A stretch of 64,000 nt of DNA from Phycisphaerales bacterium (GTDB lineage Bacteria > Planctomycetota > Phycisphaerae > Phycisphaerales > SM1A02), in NCBI GenBank assembly GCA_014238965.1, contig JABAAC010000091.1:1-64000 (forward strand). The letters run 5' to 3'. Numbering within the stretch: position 1 is the first letter of the stretch; each line of letters starts with the position of its first letter. The notes beneath the pieces are model-generated. The model was not told where the DNA came from. It did no database searches and worked only from the letters and a program-made list of their open reading frames with translations. A program made the translations under genes and the position numbers. This document shows positions 3,370 to 28,234 of this stretch, piece by piece.

Positions 3370-5169
3370 TCAGACCGGCTCGTTGCCGCCACCTTGTGGA
3401 CGATCGCCACCACGGCGACCTCGGTCGCTGTTTCCGTCGCGATTGCCACCACGATTGTCTCGGAAGGCCTCACGAATGGCTTCCCGCTCTTCATCTGAGA
3501 TCTCGCCATCACCGTTCGCATCGAACCGTTTCATGAACTGCTCACGCATCGCTTCGCGATCTTCACCGCCACCGCCCCATTGCCGGGTGCGATTTCCACG
3601 ATCCCCACCACGCATGCCTGGTAGTGCCTTGGCACGTTCCTCGCCAAGCAAGTCAGTCAACGCTTCGATGTATTCTTGATCCACTTCGGAACGACGCTCG
3701 GTCGCTTCGTCGAGGGGTGTGTCTTCACGGTCACGCCCTGACCAATCGCCGTCCATGCCGCGAATGAATCGTAATTCACGTGGCTCCTCGTACTGCCGTA
3801 CTGCAGCGAGCACACGCTCATTTTCATCCGCCATAGCAGCGGTGCAATCACCTTGCAGTTCAACAATGGCCGTGCGAAGTGACTCCTCAAGGTCTTCCAA
3901 CTGCAAGGCTGCTTCAATTGCCCGCACTGACCTGGCAGGTCGCAACCAGCGGCCATAGCCATCTTGCACAGCGCCTTGCCTAAAGGCAGAACCTGCTTCA
4001 TCAGGCATCGCAGAGGCGATGGACTCGACTGCGGTATCATTGACATTGCGAACAGCCTGCTGCAACTTCAGTCGATCAAGCACAAGGCGTTCAAGCGCCA
4101 CGCTGTCTCGATCCGTCATCAACTCCATAGCCCTAACGCGAGTTGTGGCATCAAAGGCATCGCGTCGAAGCAATGCATCGTCGAGATCGATTGTCCACAC
4201 GTTGACGATGGTGGTCACTGCATCACGGACCTCGTCATTTGAATCTGAGATCGCACTGAGCGTCAATGACTCAACATTGAACGACTCACCTGAAATTCTG
4301 CCCTCTGGCAACAGCCGCTCGCGTCGGATTCGACGAATAACTTTGTCCCAAAGTGCAACTTGCTCTTGGGCAAGAATGGTCAGAATGGCCTCTTCTGTTT
4401 CAGCGTTCATGCTGCGACGGAGCGAGTCGAACTGTTGATACAACGCACGCTGCTGAGCGAACGAGGTCTGCGTTTCGGGCTGCTCCATGCGCTCTTCCAT
4501 TTCCTTTCGGAACGAATCATGCATTTCCTGCATGCGGCCACGAAAGGTCTCTCGCATCTGTTGACGGGCCTCGTCGGTCATCGCCTCGGCGCCTTCGCCG
4601 CGCATTGATTCCCTAGCCTCACGCATTTCCGATCGAATCGTCTCCATGCGGCCACGCATCTCTTCCATTCGCTCCTGCGTTTCGGGGTTGCTTCGGAGTG
4701 TTTCATTCAACGCGCCCACCGCATCACGAGTCTCTTCGGCCGCCAGTTGGAAAGCTGCGTCGTAGTCGGCAAGAACGACCGTGACAATCTCGCCCTGTCC
4801 GTCGTCAAGATCCAGCATGTCAACCATGATGGGCAAGTCGCGCGTCATAAACAACGGACGGAACATCGAACGAGCGATCATGCCCATGGGATTGCCCGGG
4901 CCGCCTGAGCCACGTCCAAAGCCACCACCGCCGCGTCGTTCGCCGCCTCTATCTTCACGGGCATCGCCACGCTGACCACGCTGGCCACGAGCGTTATCGC
5001 CACGCTGAGGACGATCGCCACGCTGGCCACGATTCTGATCTGTTGTTCGCTCGCCCGGATCGCGATCAGGGGCATTCTGCCCAAGCGTCACGTCTGCTGT
5101 GAGCAAGATGGTCGACAACGCCGTGGCGGTAATCCATGCGAGAGGGGTAAATCTACGTGTTTGCTTCAT
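3370..5169 (-). CDS. Exported Arg/Gly-rich, coiled-coil protein with C-terminal EF-hand
   Basis: A 599-residue protein with a signal peptide (about residues 1-30, ending near VTLGQ). It is followed by a low-complexity RGQRGD-type stretch (about 35-90), a long charged helical region rich in Glu, Arg and Met (about 120-260) and a second helical region. Near the C-terminus is a canonical EF-hand loop, FDANGDGEISDEE, then another Gly/Arg/Asp-rich tail. The loop residues fit calcium binding. The charged helices recall Spy/LTxxQ-type periplasmic proteins, but no catalytic motif is seen. It is divergent from a sigma / anti-sigma / EF-hand sensor operon, which suggests it could be a target or partner of that system. 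RBS AGGAG lies ten bases before the ATG. Function unknown. Confidence 0.75.
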   Translation of the reverse strand: MKQTRRFTPLAWITATALSTILLTADVTLGQNAPDRDPGERTTDQNRGQRGDRPQRGDNARGQRGQRGDAREDRGGERRGGGGFGRGSGGPGNPMGMIARSMFRPLFMTRDLPIMVDMLDLDDGQGEIVTVVLADYDAAFQLAAEETRDAVGALNETLRSNPETQERMEEMRGRMETIRSEMREARESMRGEGAEAMTDEARQQMRETFRGRMQEMHDSFRKEMEERMEQPETQTSFAQQRALYQQFDSLRRSMNAETEEAILTILAQEQVALWDKVIRRIRRERLLPEGRISGESFNVESLTLSAISDSNDEVRDAVTTIVNVWTIDLDDALLRRDAFDATTRVRAMELMTDRDSVALERLVLDRLKLQQAVRNVNDTAVESIASAMPDEAGSAFRQGAVQDGYGRWLRPARSVRAIEAALQLEDLEESLRTAIVELQGDCTAAMADENERVLAAVRQYEEPRELRFIRGMDGDWSGRDREDTPLDEATERRSEVDQEYIEALTDLLGEERAKALPGMRGGDRGNRTRQWGGGGEDREAMREQFMKRFDANGDGEISDEEREAIREAFRDNRGGNRDGNSDRGRRGGDRPQGGGNEPV

Positions 5170-5435
5170 CTGAACCAGACTCCTGCACCGCTATGGCGCC
5201 ATCTCCAAGGGGCCCCGATCCCTGCATTTCCTGAGCGAGGGGACCATCAATTGAAAACCTCAGGCGAGGCCATACTTGTGCTACGCCCCTTCGGGTGCCG
5301 ACATCCCCATAATCCCGGCGTCCCGAAAGGCTATCTTCAAAGATCAACACTGTAGTGGCTCAATGGGTTCCACTTCCAGTCTTCACACCCCCAACCCCTT
5401 CCATGCCTATCCCATAGCCGATTGACACCTCACGC
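5170..5435. promoter_or_regulatory. Divergent control region between EF-hand gene and sigma operon
   Basis: This 266-bp gap separates two genes pointing away from each other and must hold both promoters and 5' leaders. I could not identify a convincing -35/-10 pair or an autoregulatory sigma site by eye. No ORF or stable RNA is evident. Confidence 0.4.
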
Positions 5436-6038
5436 TTGAGTACGCCCCACCGCCAACTTGTTGATATCGCTGCCTGCCTCAGTGGCCAGGAACAGGCTTG
5501 GGCTGCCTTTGTGAATGGGACTGTTGGGCTTGTTGTGGCCGCGGTTCGCCGCACAATGGGCAGCCCCCCGCCGCGGGGCATTGACGTAGATGACCTCGTT
5601 CAACAGGTCTATCTACGTCTGTTGCAACACGATATGCGGCTCCTTCGAAACTACGACCCCAGTCGGAGCGGCATTTCTACCTGGATTACGCTGATCACAC
5701 GTTCGACCACAATCGACGCCTTGCGACGACGACGTCTGCCTGTGGTGTCGCTAGACGCTGCATTGTCGATTCCGGTGCAGGATCAACCCCCAGAATTGCG
5801 TGAATCCGCGGTTGCTGCGCTGCCAACGGATCTCCTGACGGACCGGCAAATCGTGGTTCTTAGGCTGCTCTATGACGACGATCTAGACGTGTCACAAGTG
5901 GCCACTGTGCTCGGTGTTGAAGCGCAGACCATTCGAAGCACCCGACACAAGGCCATGATGCGATTGCGTGAGCATTTCTCGGACTGTCAACTAGACGACT
6001 CGCATGTACCAGACACCGAAAAAGGAGGGATGTCATGA
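5436..6038 (+). CDS. ECF-type RNA polymerase sigma factor
   Basis: A 200-residue sigma-70 family protein with region 2 (about 20-100; GIDVDDLVQQVYLRLLQ, then STWITLITRSTTIDALRRRR) and region 4 (about 125-190; DRQIVVLRLLYDDDLDVSQ with helix-turn-helix TVLGVEAQTIRSTRHKAMMR). There is no region 3, as in ECF sigma factors. The only usable start is TTG at 5436: an in-frame stop lies seven codons upstream, and the first internal ATG would cut region 2. No clear Shine-Dalgarno sequence precedes it. The next genes encode a membrane anti-sigma-like protein and a periplasmic sensor, the usual order for signal-responsive ECF operons such as cnr-type systems. Confidence 0.88.
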   Translation: MSTPHRQLVDIAACLSGQEQAWAAFVNGTVGLVVAAVRRTMGSPPPRGIDVDDLVQQVYLRLLQHDMRLLRNYDPSRSGISTWITLITRSTTIDALRRRRLPVVSLDAALSIPVQDQPPELRESAVAALPTDLLTDRQIVVLRLLYDDDLDVSQVATVLGVEAQTIRSTRHKAMMRLREHFSDCQLDDSHVPDTEKGGMS

Positions 6039-6071
6039 CCGCCCCCTCCGTACCACACATTGGAGCAGGAT

Positions 6072-6533
6072 ATGCGCGCTGAAACCCCCCATCATCATGA
6101 ATCCCGCATTGCGGATCTACCAATTGGTAGCAGCTTGGCTGATGCAGCCGCGATTGCGGCATGGATTGATGACCCAACTGCCCAATGCCCGCCTCACATA
6201 GAGGCGGCCATGGCCCACGATCCCGCCCTGCGTAGTTTGATTCGAGACCTGCGGCTGGAGCAATTTCAACCCGAGCCTGCCTCTGCCGCACTGCATGAGC
6301 ATCTCATTGCCTTGCCGATGGGCCCAAGCGTGCTCGCACGCATTGGTGGCTGGTCCATTGCCGCCGCTGCGGCAGTGGCATTGGCCGTACTGGGCTTGCA
6401 ATTGGGCGCGGAAAACGCTTCTGAAAGCCAATGGAATCCATCATCTGATCTGGCCGCCATGGGGCTAACTGTCCCAGCAGACAACGATGTCCTCATTGCC
6501 ATGCTGCTCCCTGACCAGGAGAACCCCTCATGA
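6072..6533 (+). CDS. Single-pass membrane anti-sigma-like protein
   Basis: A 153-residue protein with an acidic, helical cytoplasmic part of about 95 residues, one hydrophobic helix (about 97-117, SIAAAAAVALAVLGLQLG) and a short periplasmic tail. It lacks the HxxxCxxC zinc motif of ZAS anti-sigma factors. Its assignment therefore rests on position (between an ECF sigma gene and a periplasmic sensor gene), size and topology. The ORF track begins at a TTG four codons upstream, but the ATG at 6072 has GGAG at the right spacing and is preferred. Its stop overlaps the next start by four bases (ATGA), so the two are probably translationally coupled. Expected job: hold the sigma factor at the membrane until the sensor is triggered. 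Confidence 0.65.
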   Translation: MRAETPHHHESRIADLPIGSSLADAAAIAAWIDDPTAQCPPHIEAAMAHDPALRSLIRDLRLEQFQPEPASAALHEHLIALPMGPSVLARIGGWSIAAAAAVALAVLGLQLGAENASESQWNPSSDLAAMGLTVPADNDVLIAMLLPDQENPS

Positions 6534-7321
6534 GCCGCATGGTGCTGACCATCCTGCTGCTGTTGTCGCTGGTCTTCAACGCCTTCTTCTTGCTGGGCCG
6601 ATTCAGTGCGGATCCCGTGGCCGTTGCAGACCCTAGCGAACGACTTGCCCAGTCGTTGAAATTGACCGATCGCCAGCGTATTCGATTCGACGAACTTCGA
6701 TCTACTCTCCAAGCTGACACAGCAGCCCCGCGAGCGAGAATCGCTGAACTCCAAGGCAACCTTGCTTCGGTGCTCGAAGAGGAGTCGCCTGATCTAGAAG
6801 ACGTACGCTCACTTGTTGAACAGATTTCGTTTGAACAAGCCCAAGCCCGATCGATGGCCGCCGATCACCTTGGAAGTTTCCTTGACCTTCTCGATCCAGA
6901 TCAGCGACGGCGACTTGGCCGCCGTATGGGCGCGATGTCTCATCGCAGCCGCCCCCCAACTGACCTGTCTGCCTTTGACGTCAATAATGACGGCCGACTA
7001 GACGAAACCGAACGAGCAGAGGCCACGAGGCTCATCCACGAACGGCACGAGGCTATGCGAAAGAAGCGCAAGGACCTTGCTTCGCAATTCGATGCTGACG
7101 GCGATGGCTCCTTGAATCCGGATGAGCGACAAGCATTTCGCGAACACCTGCTTGAACAAGGACTTGCCCCACAACACCCCCGCGGACACCGAGTTGGCGA
7201 GCATGACGGACCACCCGAGGGCAGACGCGGAGAAGGCCGACGTGGCGAAGGACGACGCGGCCCCCATAATGGCCACCCACCGGGCCACAATCCCCCCGAC
7301 GAGCCACCGCCACCTGCCTAA
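6530..7321 (+). CDS. Membrane-anchored periplasmic CnrX/Spy-like sensor with two EF-hands
   Basis: A 263-residue protein with an N-terminal signal anchor (about 5-23), then a four-helix metal-resistance/Spy-type segment (about 35-130; LKLTDRQRIRFDELR is the LTxxQ-like first helix). Two canonical EF-hand loops follow (FDVNNDGRLDETE and FDADGDGSLNPDE), then repeated GRRGE units and a His/Pro-rich end (GPHNGHPPGHN). The fold family includes CnrX, which binds metal and controls the CnrH sigma factor through CnrY. EF-hands suggest calcium, while the His-rich tail could bind transition metal. Which ion is sensed is inference. It is last in the sigma / anti-sigma / sensor operon and overlaps the preceding gene by four bases. 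Confidence 0.7.
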   Translation: MSRMVLTILLLLSLVFNAFFLLGRFSADPVAVADPSERLAQSLKLTDRQRIRFDELRSTLQADTAAPRARIAELQGNLASVLEEESPDLEDVRSLVEQISFEQAQARSMAADHLGSFLDLLDPDQRRRLGRRMGAMSHRSRPPTDLSAFDVNNDGRLDETERAEATRLIHERHEAMRKKRKDLASQFDADGDGSLNPDERQAFREHLLEQGLAPQHPRGHRVGEHDGPPEGRRGEGRRGEGRRGPHNGHPPGHNPPDEPPPPA

Positions 7322-7397: not shown

Positions 7398-7775
7398 ATG
7401 ATTGGTTGGTTTTATCTCGCAATGGCGGTTTGCTTCGAAGTGGCTGCTGCCACGTGCTTGAAGTTCGCCAATGGCATTCCCGGCCTAGACAAGGACGCGC
7501 AGCCACTGCCCTTCGCCCTGATGCTGGTGTTCTACATCACCTGCTTCCTGTTCATGGCCAAATCAATGGAGACGATCCAGTTGGGTGTGCTGTACGCATT
7601 CTGGGCAGGGATGGGCACGATTCTCGTGGCAATCGTGGGGGTGTACCTCTTTCAGGACACGATGCCAGTGATCAAGATTGTGGGCATCGGTCTCATCATC
7701 ACCGGAGTCGCCATGGTGAATCTTGGCGGCACGAAGAATGTAGATCACACGCCGCCTGTTGTTGAGCAAGGTTAA
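7398..7775 (+). CDS. SMR-family small multidrug/guanidinium-type efflux protein
   Basis: A 125-residue protein with four predicted membrane helices, the normal size for the family. The essential membrane glutamate is present at residue 14 (CFEVAAATCLK). The third-helix signature is also present (YAFWAGMGTILVAIVG). SMR proteins work as antiparallel dimers that exchange protons for cationic substrates across the inner membrane. The sequence does not separate EmrE-like from Gdx/SugE-like members with certainty. The gene ends three bases before the convergent M48 peptidase gene, so no terminator fits between them. Confidence 0.85.
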   Translation: MIGWFYLAMAVCFEVAAATCLKFANGIPGLDKDAQPLPFALMLVFYITCFLFMAKSMETIQLGVLYAFWAGMGTILVAIVGVYLFQDTMPVIKIVGIGLIITGVAMVNLGGTKNVDHTPPVVEQG

Positions 7776-7777
7776 CC

Positions 7778-8578
7778 TCAGCGAGCAAGGCCTGATTGTG
7801 CACGAATGGCCCGGGCCTTGGGCAGCAGTGCTTGCAACTGCTCGATGCGACGGTGTGGATCCGGATGCGTGGACAAAAACTCGATTGCCGGCCCACCACC
7901 TTCCTTTGCCATACGTTGCCAAAGCCCAATCGCCTGATCGGGGTCGAAGCCTGCCTCCGCCGCAATAAACAGGCCCAGTTCGTCAGCTTCAGACTCGTGA
8001 AGTCGGCTGTAGGGCAACACAATGCCCAACTGCGATCCAATACCCAATGCAGCAAGTGCAACTTCACGTGTCGTCTCATCGTCATCCCCAATCGCCATAG
8101 CACCAATGACTGTGCCACCAACGATCAAGAGATGTTGCGATAACCGTTCGCCACCGTGCCCCGCGAGCACATGCCCCACTTCGTGGCCGAGAATGATGGC
8201 GAGGCCATCATCACTTTGCGCAACGGGGAGCAGCCCCGTATGCACACCGATGCGACCTCCGGGCAAAGCAAAGGCATTGGCGGAATCGTCGTCAATGAGT
8301 ACGACTTCCCATTCATAATCCTCCAAGCCAGCGCCTGGATAACGACGCTTCCCCGCTTCCACAACACGACGAGCGATACGCCGCACGCGACGGACCTGAT
8401 CACCCTGATCGATTACTTTGCCATTGGCGTGAATATCGGCAAACGCCTCTTGCCCCATCGCATCAACAGTAGATCGTGGAAGCAGGTCGAGCCGATCACG
8501 GTTCGTACCAGGCACCGATGAGCAGCTCATGACCCCTATTCCCAGAACGAACCCAATGCACAATCGTACTGGTCGCAT
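7778..8578 (-). CDS. M48-family zinc metallopeptidase, probable lipoprotein
   Basis: A 266-residue peptidase with the zinc motif HEVGH at about 132-136 and the downstream third-ligand region HESEADELG near 195, as in the BepA/LoiP and Oma1-like branch of M48. The N-terminus has a hydrophobic stretch ending VMSC, a plausible lipobox with Cys at residue 19, so it is probably attached to a membrane on the periplasmic side and acts in envelope protein quality control. It starts nine bases after the stop of the FAD/Fe-S oxidoreductase gene and is probably cotranscribed with it. Confidence 0.88.
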   Translation of the reverse strand: MRPVRLCIGFVLGIGVMSCSSVPGTNRDRLDLLPRSTVDAMGQEAFADIHANGKVIDQGDQVRRVRRIARRVVEAGKRRYPGAGLEDYEWEVVLIDDDSANAFALPGGRIGVHTGLLPVAQSDDGLAIILGHEVGHVLAGHGGERLSQHLLIVGGTVIGAMAIGDDDETTREVALAALGIGSQLGIVLPYSRLHESEADELGLFIAAEAGFDPDQAIGLWQRMAKEGGGPAIEFLSTHPDPHRRIEQLQALLPKARAIRAQSGLAR

Positions 8579-8587
8579 TGCTCAAGC

Positions 8588-11527
8588 CTACCCCCGTGCC
8601 CGACACAATGCGCCATGCGCCAACATCAATGGGTGATGCGATTGGACGGAGAATGCATCACTGATTTGATGTCGGCATGAAGTGCCATTTGCTGCAACGA
8701 TTGCACCACGACGCGAACGAATGGCCTCGCCGAGAGACTGCTCGGCAATGCGCATCGACAAATTACGTGTCTCGCGGTCATAGCCAAATGATCCCGCCAT
8801 TCCACAGCATCCGCTGTCAAGCAATTTGACATCGCTGAATCCACATCGCTCCATGAACTGCTTCGTACGCATAGAGCGGTGTTTCTGGTGGCAATGCATA
8901 TGCAATACGACGGGATAACTGGTGGGCGCAAAGTCTGGATGCCGCGGATGCCTCCCCCATTGACGCAACAGAAAACTCTCAACTGTGTCGGCAGCCTCAG
9001 CAACCTGCTCGGCCATGTGCTGAGCGGCCCCCAACTGTAATTCAGTCCACTCCTGCTGCAATGCGGTTGCACATGACGGTTCAACTGCAAGAACAACTGT
9101 GGCATTGTGCTCGAGCATGGCCGCACGAACAGCTGCTGCCGAGCCAGCCACTTGTGATGCAGCGCGGTCCAACATGCCTGCACTGCAACTCGTTCGCCCA
9201 CAACAGTCAGACTTGGGGATGACAACCCTATAGCCGAATGCTTCAAGCAGTCGAATTGCCGCCTTCCCTAGCTGTGGCTCGCTCCACGTGGTAAAGCAGT
9301 CTTGATACAGCAGTACAACCGGCGCATCGTGCATACGTTGTCGCTTGCGAGACCAGCGTGTTAACGCAGGGCCAAAGGTGGGCAATGCACGAGATTGGTG
9401 CATTCCCAGAAGCCCTCGCACCGCCCATGCAATGGGCCACAATCGACTCATAAGGTTGGCAATGCGATGGAACATTGATCCAATTCGGTTGACCGATCGA
9501 ATGCCGGCCCTTGCTCGCACGCGCCATGGCGCACCGCCGCGAGCTGCCCACCGCTGCGCGTCGTACTCCGCTTTGAGTTTGGTGACATCCACTTGTGATG
9601 GACACTCATAACGGCATGCCTTACAACCAAGGCACAGCGACAGGGTTTCATTCACCTGCGGATCATCAATGGCGACTTCGCCAGGTTGAATCTGCCCGGT
9701 CATTGCTAAACGCAGTGCATTCCCTCGGCCACGCGTGCTGTGGCGCTCATCGCGAGTTGCTCTATAAGACGGACACATTGCGCCGGATCCACTTTTTCGA
9801 CACATGCCCTGCCCATTGCATTGCGCTGCCGCACGTTCAAATGACCCTTCATTGCGCCAATGAAAGCCAGTCGTATGAATCTTCTCCCCAATGTCCGTTT
9901 CTCGGTCAACTCGAAGATGCTCAAGCATGCCTGGATCACTGACGATGATCCCGGGGTTAAATCGACCATGAGGATCAAACAGTTCCTTCACTGCGACGAA
10001 AGCCTCGATGATTTTCGGACCGTAAAACTCGTGCATCAACGCTGACCGTATGCGGCCGTCACCGTGTTCGCCGCTAATTGCCCCGCCGAAACGCTGCACT
10101 AACCCAAGTGCCTCCTCGCCAATGCTCACCAGCAACGCCCGATCCTCCTTGCTTCGAAGATCAAGGCGTGGGCGAACATGCAACAAGCCAACACTGGCGT
10201 GGGCGTACCACGTTGCGGCTACACCATGCGTTGCAAGCATTGCATCGAATGCCTGCTGAAATGCAGCCAGCCGATCTGCCGAAACGACGCAATCCTCGAC
10301 GCCTGGCACTGGCATTCGTTCTGTGTCACCGTATGACAACAGCCCGAGCCCTGCCTTGCGCATGCCCCAGAGTTGATCTTGAGAAGAGACGTCGAACGCT
10401 TCAAGCACATTGGATTCAGGTACGGCAGCACGCACCAGGGCCGCTTGATCGTGCAATTCATTAGGGCCATCGACAAACATGTCAACGAACAGCACTGCAT
10501 GTGACGTACCACCTGAATCCCCAGGGAGTTGATCGACAAGTTCGCTGTAGGCCGGATGACTTCGGGCGGCGAGCAACACGTCCGCGTCGAGCAACTCCAC
10601 CGCCGATGGGTTGGTGGCCAATACACTTGGAACGGCCTGCAACGCCGACTGAACAGAGTCAAAGCCCAGCACAATCAAGCCCGTGCACGCTGGTATCGGC
10701 ACCAATTGCAACTCAATGCTCGTTATGCATGCAAGTGTCCCCTCTGAGCCACACATTAATCGAGCTAAATCAACTTGATCAAATGTGTCCTGCGTACTGC
10801 GATCGAATTGATCGGCGAGTAGATCTAATCGGTAGCCACCGTTGTTTCGCGGAAGTTGCGGAAATGTCGCACGAATCGCCTCTCTGTTGGGCTGCACGAC
10901 ATCGGCTAACGCGTGAGCCAGCCGTGACGCTTCCGCGTCGAAAGCAGAAGCACCCGCTTCGAATCTGGCGATTGCACCATCGCCCAACACAACATCCAAT
11001 GCGAGCACATGGTCACCGGTAGTTCCCCACCACAAAGAGTGGAGGCCTGCAGAGTTGTTCGCCACCATGCCGCCAAGTGTGGCCTGCGCAGAAGTTGACA
11101 CTTCCGGACCAAAGGTCAGCCCGTGCTTCGCCGCAGCTCTTCGCAAGTCGTCGAGCACAACGCCTGGGCCAACGATTGCAGTACGCGTCTGCGCATTGAT
11201 TGTGCACTCCGTCATGTGCACGGAACAATCGACAACAACGGCGTGATTGACCGTTTGTCCCGCCAAAGATGAACCGGCCCCGCGCGGCAACAGTGATAGA
11301 TTGTTGTCTCGACACCACCTCACAAGATTCACGATGTCTCGGCGGTGCTTTGGCTGCACAACACCCAGTGGCTTGACCTGATACGGCGAAGCGTCGGTCG
11401 CATACAGCATGCGGATGTGCTCTTGGGTTCGGACGTCTCCGTCAAGCAGCTGCGTGAGTCGAAGCCAATCAGCCTTTGTGACCTGATCGCCTTGGGGCAT
11501 TGCATTGTTGACGACAGGCAGTTCCAT
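8588..11527 (-). CDS. Fused FAD-linked oxidase / Fe-S oxidoreductase (YdiJ-like)
   Basis: About 979 residues. The N-terminal half is a GlcD-type FAD-binding domain (PRGAGSSLAGQTVNHAVVVD) with an FAD-linked oxidase C-terminal domain. The second half has two ferredoxin-like cysteine clusters (CNGQGMCRKSGSGAMCPSY; CLGCKACRYECPSQVD) and two CCG motifs (CCGRTSCSAGM and DSGCCGMAGSFGYD). This fused plan matches D-2-hydroxyacid dehydrogenases of the YdiJ type, which oxidise a 2-hydroxyacid such as D-2-hydroxyglutarate or D-lactate and pass electrons to the quinone pool. The exact substrate is not visible. The track starts 23 codons upstream; I prefer the ATG at 11527, but ribosome-site support is weak either way. 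Confidence 0.85.
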   Translation of the reverse strand: MELPVVNNAMPQGDQVTKADWLRLTQLLDGDVRTQEHIRMLYATDASPYQVKPLGVVQPKHRRDIVNLVRWCRDNNLSLLPRGAGSSLAGQTVNHAVVVDCSVHMTECTINAQTRTAIVGPGVVLDDLRRAAAKHGLTFGPEVSTSAQATLGGMVANNSAGLHSLWWGTTGDHVLALDVVLGDGAIARFEAGASAFDAEASRLAHALADVVQPNREAIRATFPQLPRNNGGYRLDLLADQFDRSTQDTFDQVDLARLMCGSEGTLACITSIELQLVPIPACTGLIVLGFDSVQSALQAVPSVLATNPSAVELLDADVLLAARSHPAYSELVDQLPGDSGGTSHAVLFVDMFVDGPNELHDQAALVRAAVPESNVLEAFDVSSQDQLWGMRKAGLGLLSYGDTERMPVPGVEDCVVSADRLAAFQQAFDAMLATHGVAATWYAHASVGLLHVRPRLDLRSKEDRALLVSIGEEALGLVQRFGGAISGEHGDGRIRSALMHEFYGPKIIEAFVAVKELFDPHGRFNPGIIVSDPGMLEHLRVDRETDIGEKIHTTGFHWRNEGSFERAAAQCNGQGMCRKSGSGAMCPSYRATRDERHSTRGRGNALRLAMTGQIQPGEVAIDDPQVNETLSLCLGCKACRYECPSQVDVTKLKAEYDAQRWAARGGAPWRVRARAGIRSVNRIGSMFHRIANLMSRLWPIAWAVRGLLGMHQSRALPTFGPALTRWSRKRQRMHDAPVVLLYQDCFTTWSEPQLGKAAIRLLEAFGYRVVIPKSDCCGRTSCSAGMLDRAASQVAGSAAAVRAAMLEHNATVVLAVEPSCATALQQEWTELQLGAAQHMAEQVAEAADTVESFLLRQWGRHPRHPDFAPTSYPVVLHMHCHQKHRSMRTKQFMERCGFSDVKLLDSGCCGMAGSFGYDRETRNLSMRIAEQSLGEAIRSRRGAIVAANGTSCRHQISDAFSVQSHHPLMLAHGALCRARG

Positions 11528-11667
11528 TGGGCAGGATTCTATGCGTGATAGCTTCCGACAGTCGGCCAAGGCGTTGAACCCAAACAAGATGGACAACAGC
11601 CAAACGGGCCACGCGACACAGCCCTCCGCCCAGCCCCCACCTCTACATCACCTAAGAAGAACAAACT

Positions 11668-27879: not shown

Positions 27880-27973
27880 CTAATCCGTGGCAGACATTCG
27901 TCTCCCAAGACTCGCCAGATTGGGAGGGGCGATTGTCTCTGAAACCACTCCCTTACCTGCTACCCTACTTGCA

Positions 27974-28192
27974 GGAATGAGGTTCCACGTTGCAACTGAC
28001 GTCAGTTGCAACGTAGGCGAAGAAGGGAAGTGCGGTACATCGAACACACGTTCGAATAGTCCGCCGCGGTTACGCCGCCGTACAGCCCCGCTTGCGGGTA
28101 TCGCAAGCGCAACTCGATCAATGTCACTGCTGCATTATGTGAGCGGGAAGACGACCGAGCCACGGGCTACAGCCGGAAGACCTGCCCATTCC
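27974..28192 (+). promoter_or_regulatory. Cobalamin riboswitch (AdoCbl/B12 element)
   Basis: The 3' B12 box reads AGCCGGAAGACCTGCC (28171-28186), nearly identical to the family consensus. Other core blocks are in the right order: GGTTCC at the 5' end, GAAGGGAAGTGCGGT, GTCACTG and GAGCGGGAAGACG. Helices visible are P1 (GGAATG with CATTCC), a perfect palindromic stem (arm ACGTTGCAACTGAC at 27987), TCGAAC/GTTCGA around an ACAC loop, and CGCTTGCG/CGCAAGCG around GGTAT. A small hairpin, TCGC/GCGA, follows just before the ribosome site and could be the kissing-loop or expression-platform partner. The element ends 42 bp before the start of the PEP-CTERM protein gene, so repression by B12 at translation is the likely mode. 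Confidence 0.92.
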
Positions 28193-28234
28193 CTGTTCGC
28201 GTGCGCTGCGATTTCGGCGTGCGGGAGATTTGCC

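Follow-up and report, generated by a model that had tools for sequence, protein, structure and literature searches.

A conserved ECF sigma factor module with a predicted EF-hand pair on a putative CnrX/Spy-fold co-sensor in marine Phycisphaerales

Genes A to D in the window, the 64 kb stretch of DNA analysed here, form a real conserved module and no chance neighbourhood. The gene set, its order, the protein folds and the conservation of the promoters were established by computation. We consider it likely that the module is an ECF switch in which C holds the sigma factor B, D serves as co-sensor, and B, once freed, transcribes A and C-D. The window belongs to a 2.6 Mb metagenome-assembled genome whose nearest named relatives are Phycisphaerales from ALOHA. 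All four genes were confirmed where the initial annotation had placed them, and are listed here with the two putative promoters.

3370 to 5169, minus strand: gene A, exported protein of 599 aa, the likely output, with homologues in most EF-type loci
5279 to 5308, minus strand: promoter P_A, GGGGATG-N16-CGTA, facing gene A
5436 to 6038, plus strand: gene B, ECF sigma factor of 200 aa with a TTG start
6026 to 6055, plus strand: promoter P_CD, AGGGATG-N16-CGTA, an exact match that spans the end of B and faces C-D
6072 to 6533, plus strand: gene C, predicted single-pass anti-sigma factor of class I that lacks the zinc motif (open reading frame with TTG from 6060)
6530 to 7321, plus strand: gene D, membrane-anchored candidate sensor of 263 aa

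Conservation of the neighbourhood was assessed in two surveys. In the first, D was searched in 60 relatives, followed by tblastn with all four genes; A divergent from B-C-D was found in nine genomes, the window genome counted, and a further four had B with D. The second, independent survey used the sigma alignment alone against 84,980 species genomes and returned 46 loci, with marine Phycisphaerales as the source of almost all. In about 40 of the 46, B was followed immediately by C and D; A was divergent in most, and the nearest relatives retained the whole layout. Loss of the neighbourhood in relatives had been set beforehand as evidence against the module; with the neighbourhood retained in relatives, that objection fails. 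Where A was not divergent, as in L065 and L067-L069, it lay directly 3' of D in the same direction, still behind the B/C promoter, and another D-like EF-hand protein took the divergent position. Three records, L070, L046 and L049, are titled Oceanobacillus or Actinomycetes and hold module loci that are planctomycete- or proteobacteria-like, possibly through mislabelling or mixed bins. Among the 46 loci, the module was adjoined by an SMR-type gene in 16, by an M48 metalloprotease gene in 16 and by the gene for a large FAD-linked oxidase in 17 (window 7398-11596). DUF1800/DUF1501-like genes, named by reading the sequence, lay 3' of the module in L071 (6591-9397), and a Cobalamin riboswitch (RF00174, 47.5 bits) was found elsewhere in the window at 27963-28203 on the plus strand.

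The strongest evidence on the module came from a promoter motif absent from the initial annotation. Gapped k-mer counting revealed one dominant motif 5' of B, GGGGAT(G/A)-N16-CGTA, in 26 of 44 loci compared to a shuffle maximum of 5. The N16 spacing and the CGTA box are features of ECF-type promoters. A weight matrix was then trained on A-facing sites only, with the B/C sites left out of training. It scored P_A at 20.8 and, wherever a scored locus had a divergent A, placed a strong site before that gene (22/22). A result we had not expected was a second site, in 40 of 44 loci, at the B/C junction; other sites in the same loci numbered 4 in 424 kb. In several loci the B/C site lay in noncoding DNA past the B stop, and it is thus no by-product of coding sequence. 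The strict form of the motif had two matches in the 2.6 Mb window genome, both inside the module. The C-D arrangement was also seen beside unrelated ECF sigma factors (L105, L107, L108 and L110, with C undetected in L107), and no GGGGAT-type site was found in these control loci. EF-less loci with the module's sigma (L106, L031) do carry the motif.

These sites alter the reading of B-C-D as a tight operon. C and D do overlap, with a stop-start of 4 nt in most loci, but a conserved, predicted sigma-type promoter sits inside, at the B/C junction, and B-C-D is not one simple operon. Sites facing B were weaker and present in about half of the loci, and the weight matrix recognised no promoter of its own for window B. 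Judging promoter activity and sigma specificity from co-conservation, B probably drives A together with the genes for its own inhibitor and sensor, C-D, which would give the switch one arm for output and another for negative feedback. On the simplest reading, B itself would be largely outside its own regulon. For the window genome itself, we discarded the idea of a wide regulon: a looser pattern gave 6 sites versus 7 for a reversed control, and the placement of the four outside the module was not clearly promoter-like. Two relatives, G014 and G009, have additional sites ahead of genes for secreted proteins, suggesting a wider regulon there. The genes behind these extra sites, named by reading their sequences, encode Spy-like paralogues (L145, L148), an amidohydrolase (L147), a thioredoxin-like protein (L149), di-haem cytochrome c peroxidase-like and LamG-like proteins (L146) and, in G009, a DUF1800-like protein (L151).

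The assignments of B as an ECF sigma factor and of C as a single-pass protein lacking a zinc motif were borne out. B matched the models TIGR02937 (1.7e-18), Sigma70_r2 (5e-10) and Sigma70_r4 (2e-7); regions 2 and 4 were present and region 3 absent, as in ECF-type factors. C showed one TM helix, no HxxxCxxC motif and no Pfam match. Its start is most likely ATG 6072 rather than TTG 6060, since a putative GGAG ribosome site lies 7-10 nt 5' of the former and the latter falls within that site. Profile searches with C matched chain 3hug_B (3.6e-5), which we take to be the anti-sigma factor RslA of M. tuberculosis, and CnrY was not among the matches. A zf-HC2 match was found in 6 of 11 C homologues, and HxxxCxxC was kept in about 10 of 45 C proteins, so the motif was rejected as a required part of C. 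The RslA match, the zf-HC2 matches in homologues and the motif in some relatives together place window C among the class I anti-sigma factors, as a member that lacks the zinc motif. Zinc-bearing and zinc-free members are known to occur intermingled in class I (PMC7406223).

TM residues were among the most conserved positions of C and D outside the EF loops. A glycine pair (GxxxG) in the TM helix of C was kept at G112 in 37/39 and at G116 in 39/39 proteins, and L10, S13 and N17 in the TM helix of D were invariant (39/39), compared to mean column identities near 30%. These motifs are a hint of a C-D contact within the membrane.

D had been described as a membrane-anchored, CnrX/Spy-like protein with two EF-hands, and each part of that description held. 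A TM anchor (residues 2-25) precedes a Spy/CnrX-fold domain (about 35-137), and a low-confidence tail begins near residue 215. In the HMM searches that had been proposed as a check, the LTXXQ match (34.2) exceeded the Pfam gathering score of 24.3, and the Metal_resist match was weak (8e-6); the EF-hand loops were canonical. The structural model (mean pLDDT 81) comprised the TM helix, a hooked helical hairpin and the EF region. Its best PDB matches were ZraP, CpxP, CnrX and Spy, with probabilities of 0.98-1.00 and a TM-score to target of about 0.7 against CnrX structures. Foldseek E-values were weak (0.07 and above) owing to the short domain; local TM-scores were high and the ten best targets all belonged to one fold family. 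We therefore regard D as a membrane-anchored, predicted periplasmic protein of the CpxP/ZraP/CnrX/Spy fold with a predicted calcium-binding EF-hand pair.

The kinship with CnrX raises the possibility of heavy-metal (Ni/Co/Cu/Zn) sensing of the cnr kind, in line with the combination of a CnrX-fold co-sensor, an ECF sigma factor and a single-pass anti-sigma factor and with Metal_resist matches in 37 of 38 D homologues. Apart from Met123, the ligands of the CnrX metal site are His and Glu. Met123 is itself a residue of that site (PMC7689651). In residues 26-140 of D, no His column exceeded 32%, leaving no conserved CnrX-type His ligand set, and across the aligned D proteins the Spy domain likewise lacked a shared set of His/Met ligands. 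The anti-sigma factor is of class I, and RND efflux control was not seen: sigma-type sites precede A and C-D only, with no metal-efflux target among them. An RND gene adjoining the module is kept in 1 of 46 loci (the nearest relative found) and has no sigma site. Metal sensing of the cnr kind is thus improbable. The His-rich tail of D, put forward as a sensing element, was rejected as it is not conserved among D proteins.

The EF-hand ligands of D, by contrast, are conserved. Two canonical 12-residue loops begin at residues 150 and 188, 38 residues apart, and calmodulin was among the profile matches. Both loops, at this constant spacing, were present in essentially every full-length EF-type D; loop position 1 was Asp in 94-100% and position 12 Glu in 100% of EF-bearing D proteins. 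The fixed spacing and the acidic residues at positions 1 and 12 favour a reading in which the EF-hand pair is the switch, with binding or loss of calcium (or Mg/Mn) reshaping D so that C releases or holds B. Also in its favour, A has an EF-hand too, and in the Caulobacter CaBP-SigV system, which is induced by calcium chelation, an ECF sigma factor is coupled to an EF-hand protein of the periplasm (PMC13171946). However, the same sigma factor and B/C promoter occur with a D that has no EF-hands in L031, L049, L066, L071, L074 and L078, and the EF-hand of A is missing in L073 and in A proteins placed 3' of D. Marine calcium, moreover, is high and steady; the loops may always be filled, which makes a structural role at least as likely as gating. 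Calcium gating is plausible, and we hold the EF-hand pair as the switch as a tentative reading. The fuller proposal, that EF-hand occupancy of a CnrX-fold co-sensor gates sigma release and that the direct targets in this organism are essentially A and the module's own inhibitor and sensor, is doubtful.

With the same sigma group, EF-less D proteins were found in other lineages (L049, L066, L070, L071, L074, L078 and L079) and in one member, L031, of the window's own family. In the sigma tree, EF-bearing loci clustered, with 4 state changes compared to 10.4 in shuffles; the branch that sets them apart had moderate support (93/89). The complete TM-Spy-EF architecture was restricted to the window's family in a class-wide survey. 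By this evidence the EF-hands appear to be a later gain on a CnrX/Spy co-sensor. As D proteins without them accompany the same sigma factor, the switch presumably works without EF-hands, which would modify it. Genes for secreted proteins in which W/V-PG-H/Y-Y/W-E-like motifs recur lie 3' of some EF-less modules (L049:6542-7156, L066:6650-7156, L074:6608-7261), a possible alternative output of these modules.

Every D protein has the Spy domain, whereas only some have the EF-hands. This is consistent with envelope protein stress of the CpxP/Spy type, in which the Spy-fold domain would detect envelope proteins that are unfolded or misplaced, with the EF-hands serving only to stabilise it. The match of the D fold to CpxP, Spy and ZraP, the secreted outputs (A, and the repeat proteins behind EF-less D in L049, L066 and L074) and the M48 metalloprotease as a frequent neighbour (16/46 loci) point the same way, but the near-invariant EF ligands are left unexplained. 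We regard envelope stress as a serious candidate for the signal, a little short of probable; it and a shift in calcium or another divalent ion, sensed through the EF-hands, lead the candidates.

The secreted protein A had been described as an exported EF-hand protein with Spy-like helices. A signal peptide is followed by an RG-rich disordered linker to about residue 91, an all-helical core (94-514) and a single C-terminal EF-hand with its loop at residue 550, in keeping with the first part of this description. The likeness to Spy was weak: the Metal_resist match was sub-threshold (8.9e-5), and a fold search with the confident all-helical model gave no good PDB match. The suggestion that the divergent gene is the output gained from the predicted ECF-type promoter before A at every scored locus where A is divergent, and A is likely the output of the sigma switch.

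In the ECF switch that we favour, C, as a single-pass class I anti-sigma factor, would hold B. D, in the same membrane and with its Spy-fold domain and EF-hand pair outside, would tighten or loosen the grip of C through TM contacts. Freed B would transcribe from the GGGGAT-N16-CGTA promoters ahead of A and ahead of C-D, yielding the secreted EF-hand protein A as output and fresh C and D, which would restore inhibitor and sensor as negative feedback. Three of these steps are inferred: recognition of P_A and P_CD by B, binding of B by C, and signalling from D to C.

Planctomycetes are rich in ECF sigma systems, and for most such systems we know of no signal. Here a promoter code, a likely output, feedback wiring and a candidate ligand domain can be read from sequence, which makes the signal directly testable. 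A CnrX/Spy co-sensor that carries a fused EF-hand pair would show, as a clean experiment made by nature, how sensors of this sort change ligand. Literature searches pairing Metal_resist or LTXXQ, or Phycisphaerae, with ECF and anti-sigma factors found nothing.

Among known systems, the fold of the D periplasmic domain is shared with CpxP, Spy and ZraP, which are soluble periplasmic proteins under two-component systems; D, in contrast, has a membrane anchor and comes with an anti-sigma factor. CnrYXH of Cupriavidus metallidurans likewise joins an ECF sigma factor, a single-pass anti-sigma factor and a membrane-anchored periplasmic co-sensor of the same fold (PMC7689651, PMC4598750). It differs in that CnrY is class II and C class I, that D adds an EF-hand pair without CnrX-type ligands, that the order here is sigma, anti-sigma, sensor, and that CnrYXH drives an RND efflux pump whereas the likely output of the module is a secreted protein. 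In the CaBP-SigV system of Caulobacter vibrioides, the gene for a periplasmic EF-hand protein is linked to, and activated by, an ECF sigma factor. CaBP, however, carries a signal peptide and three EF-hands, and no Spy/CnrX domain or C-D pair is described (PMC13171946). Operons of an ECF sigma factor, a hypothetical protein and a periplasmic heavy metal sensor (for example Azospirillum RpoE8, PMC12826043, and the EF-less loci here) have the same three-gene order and a short Spy/Metal_resist D; they lack EF-hands and a divergent A, and for several from planctomycetes the ECF sigma factor is another one. Finally, the sigma-type promoter between the sigma and anti-sigma genes suggests that the module acts as a homeostat, unlike the usual self-amplifying loop.
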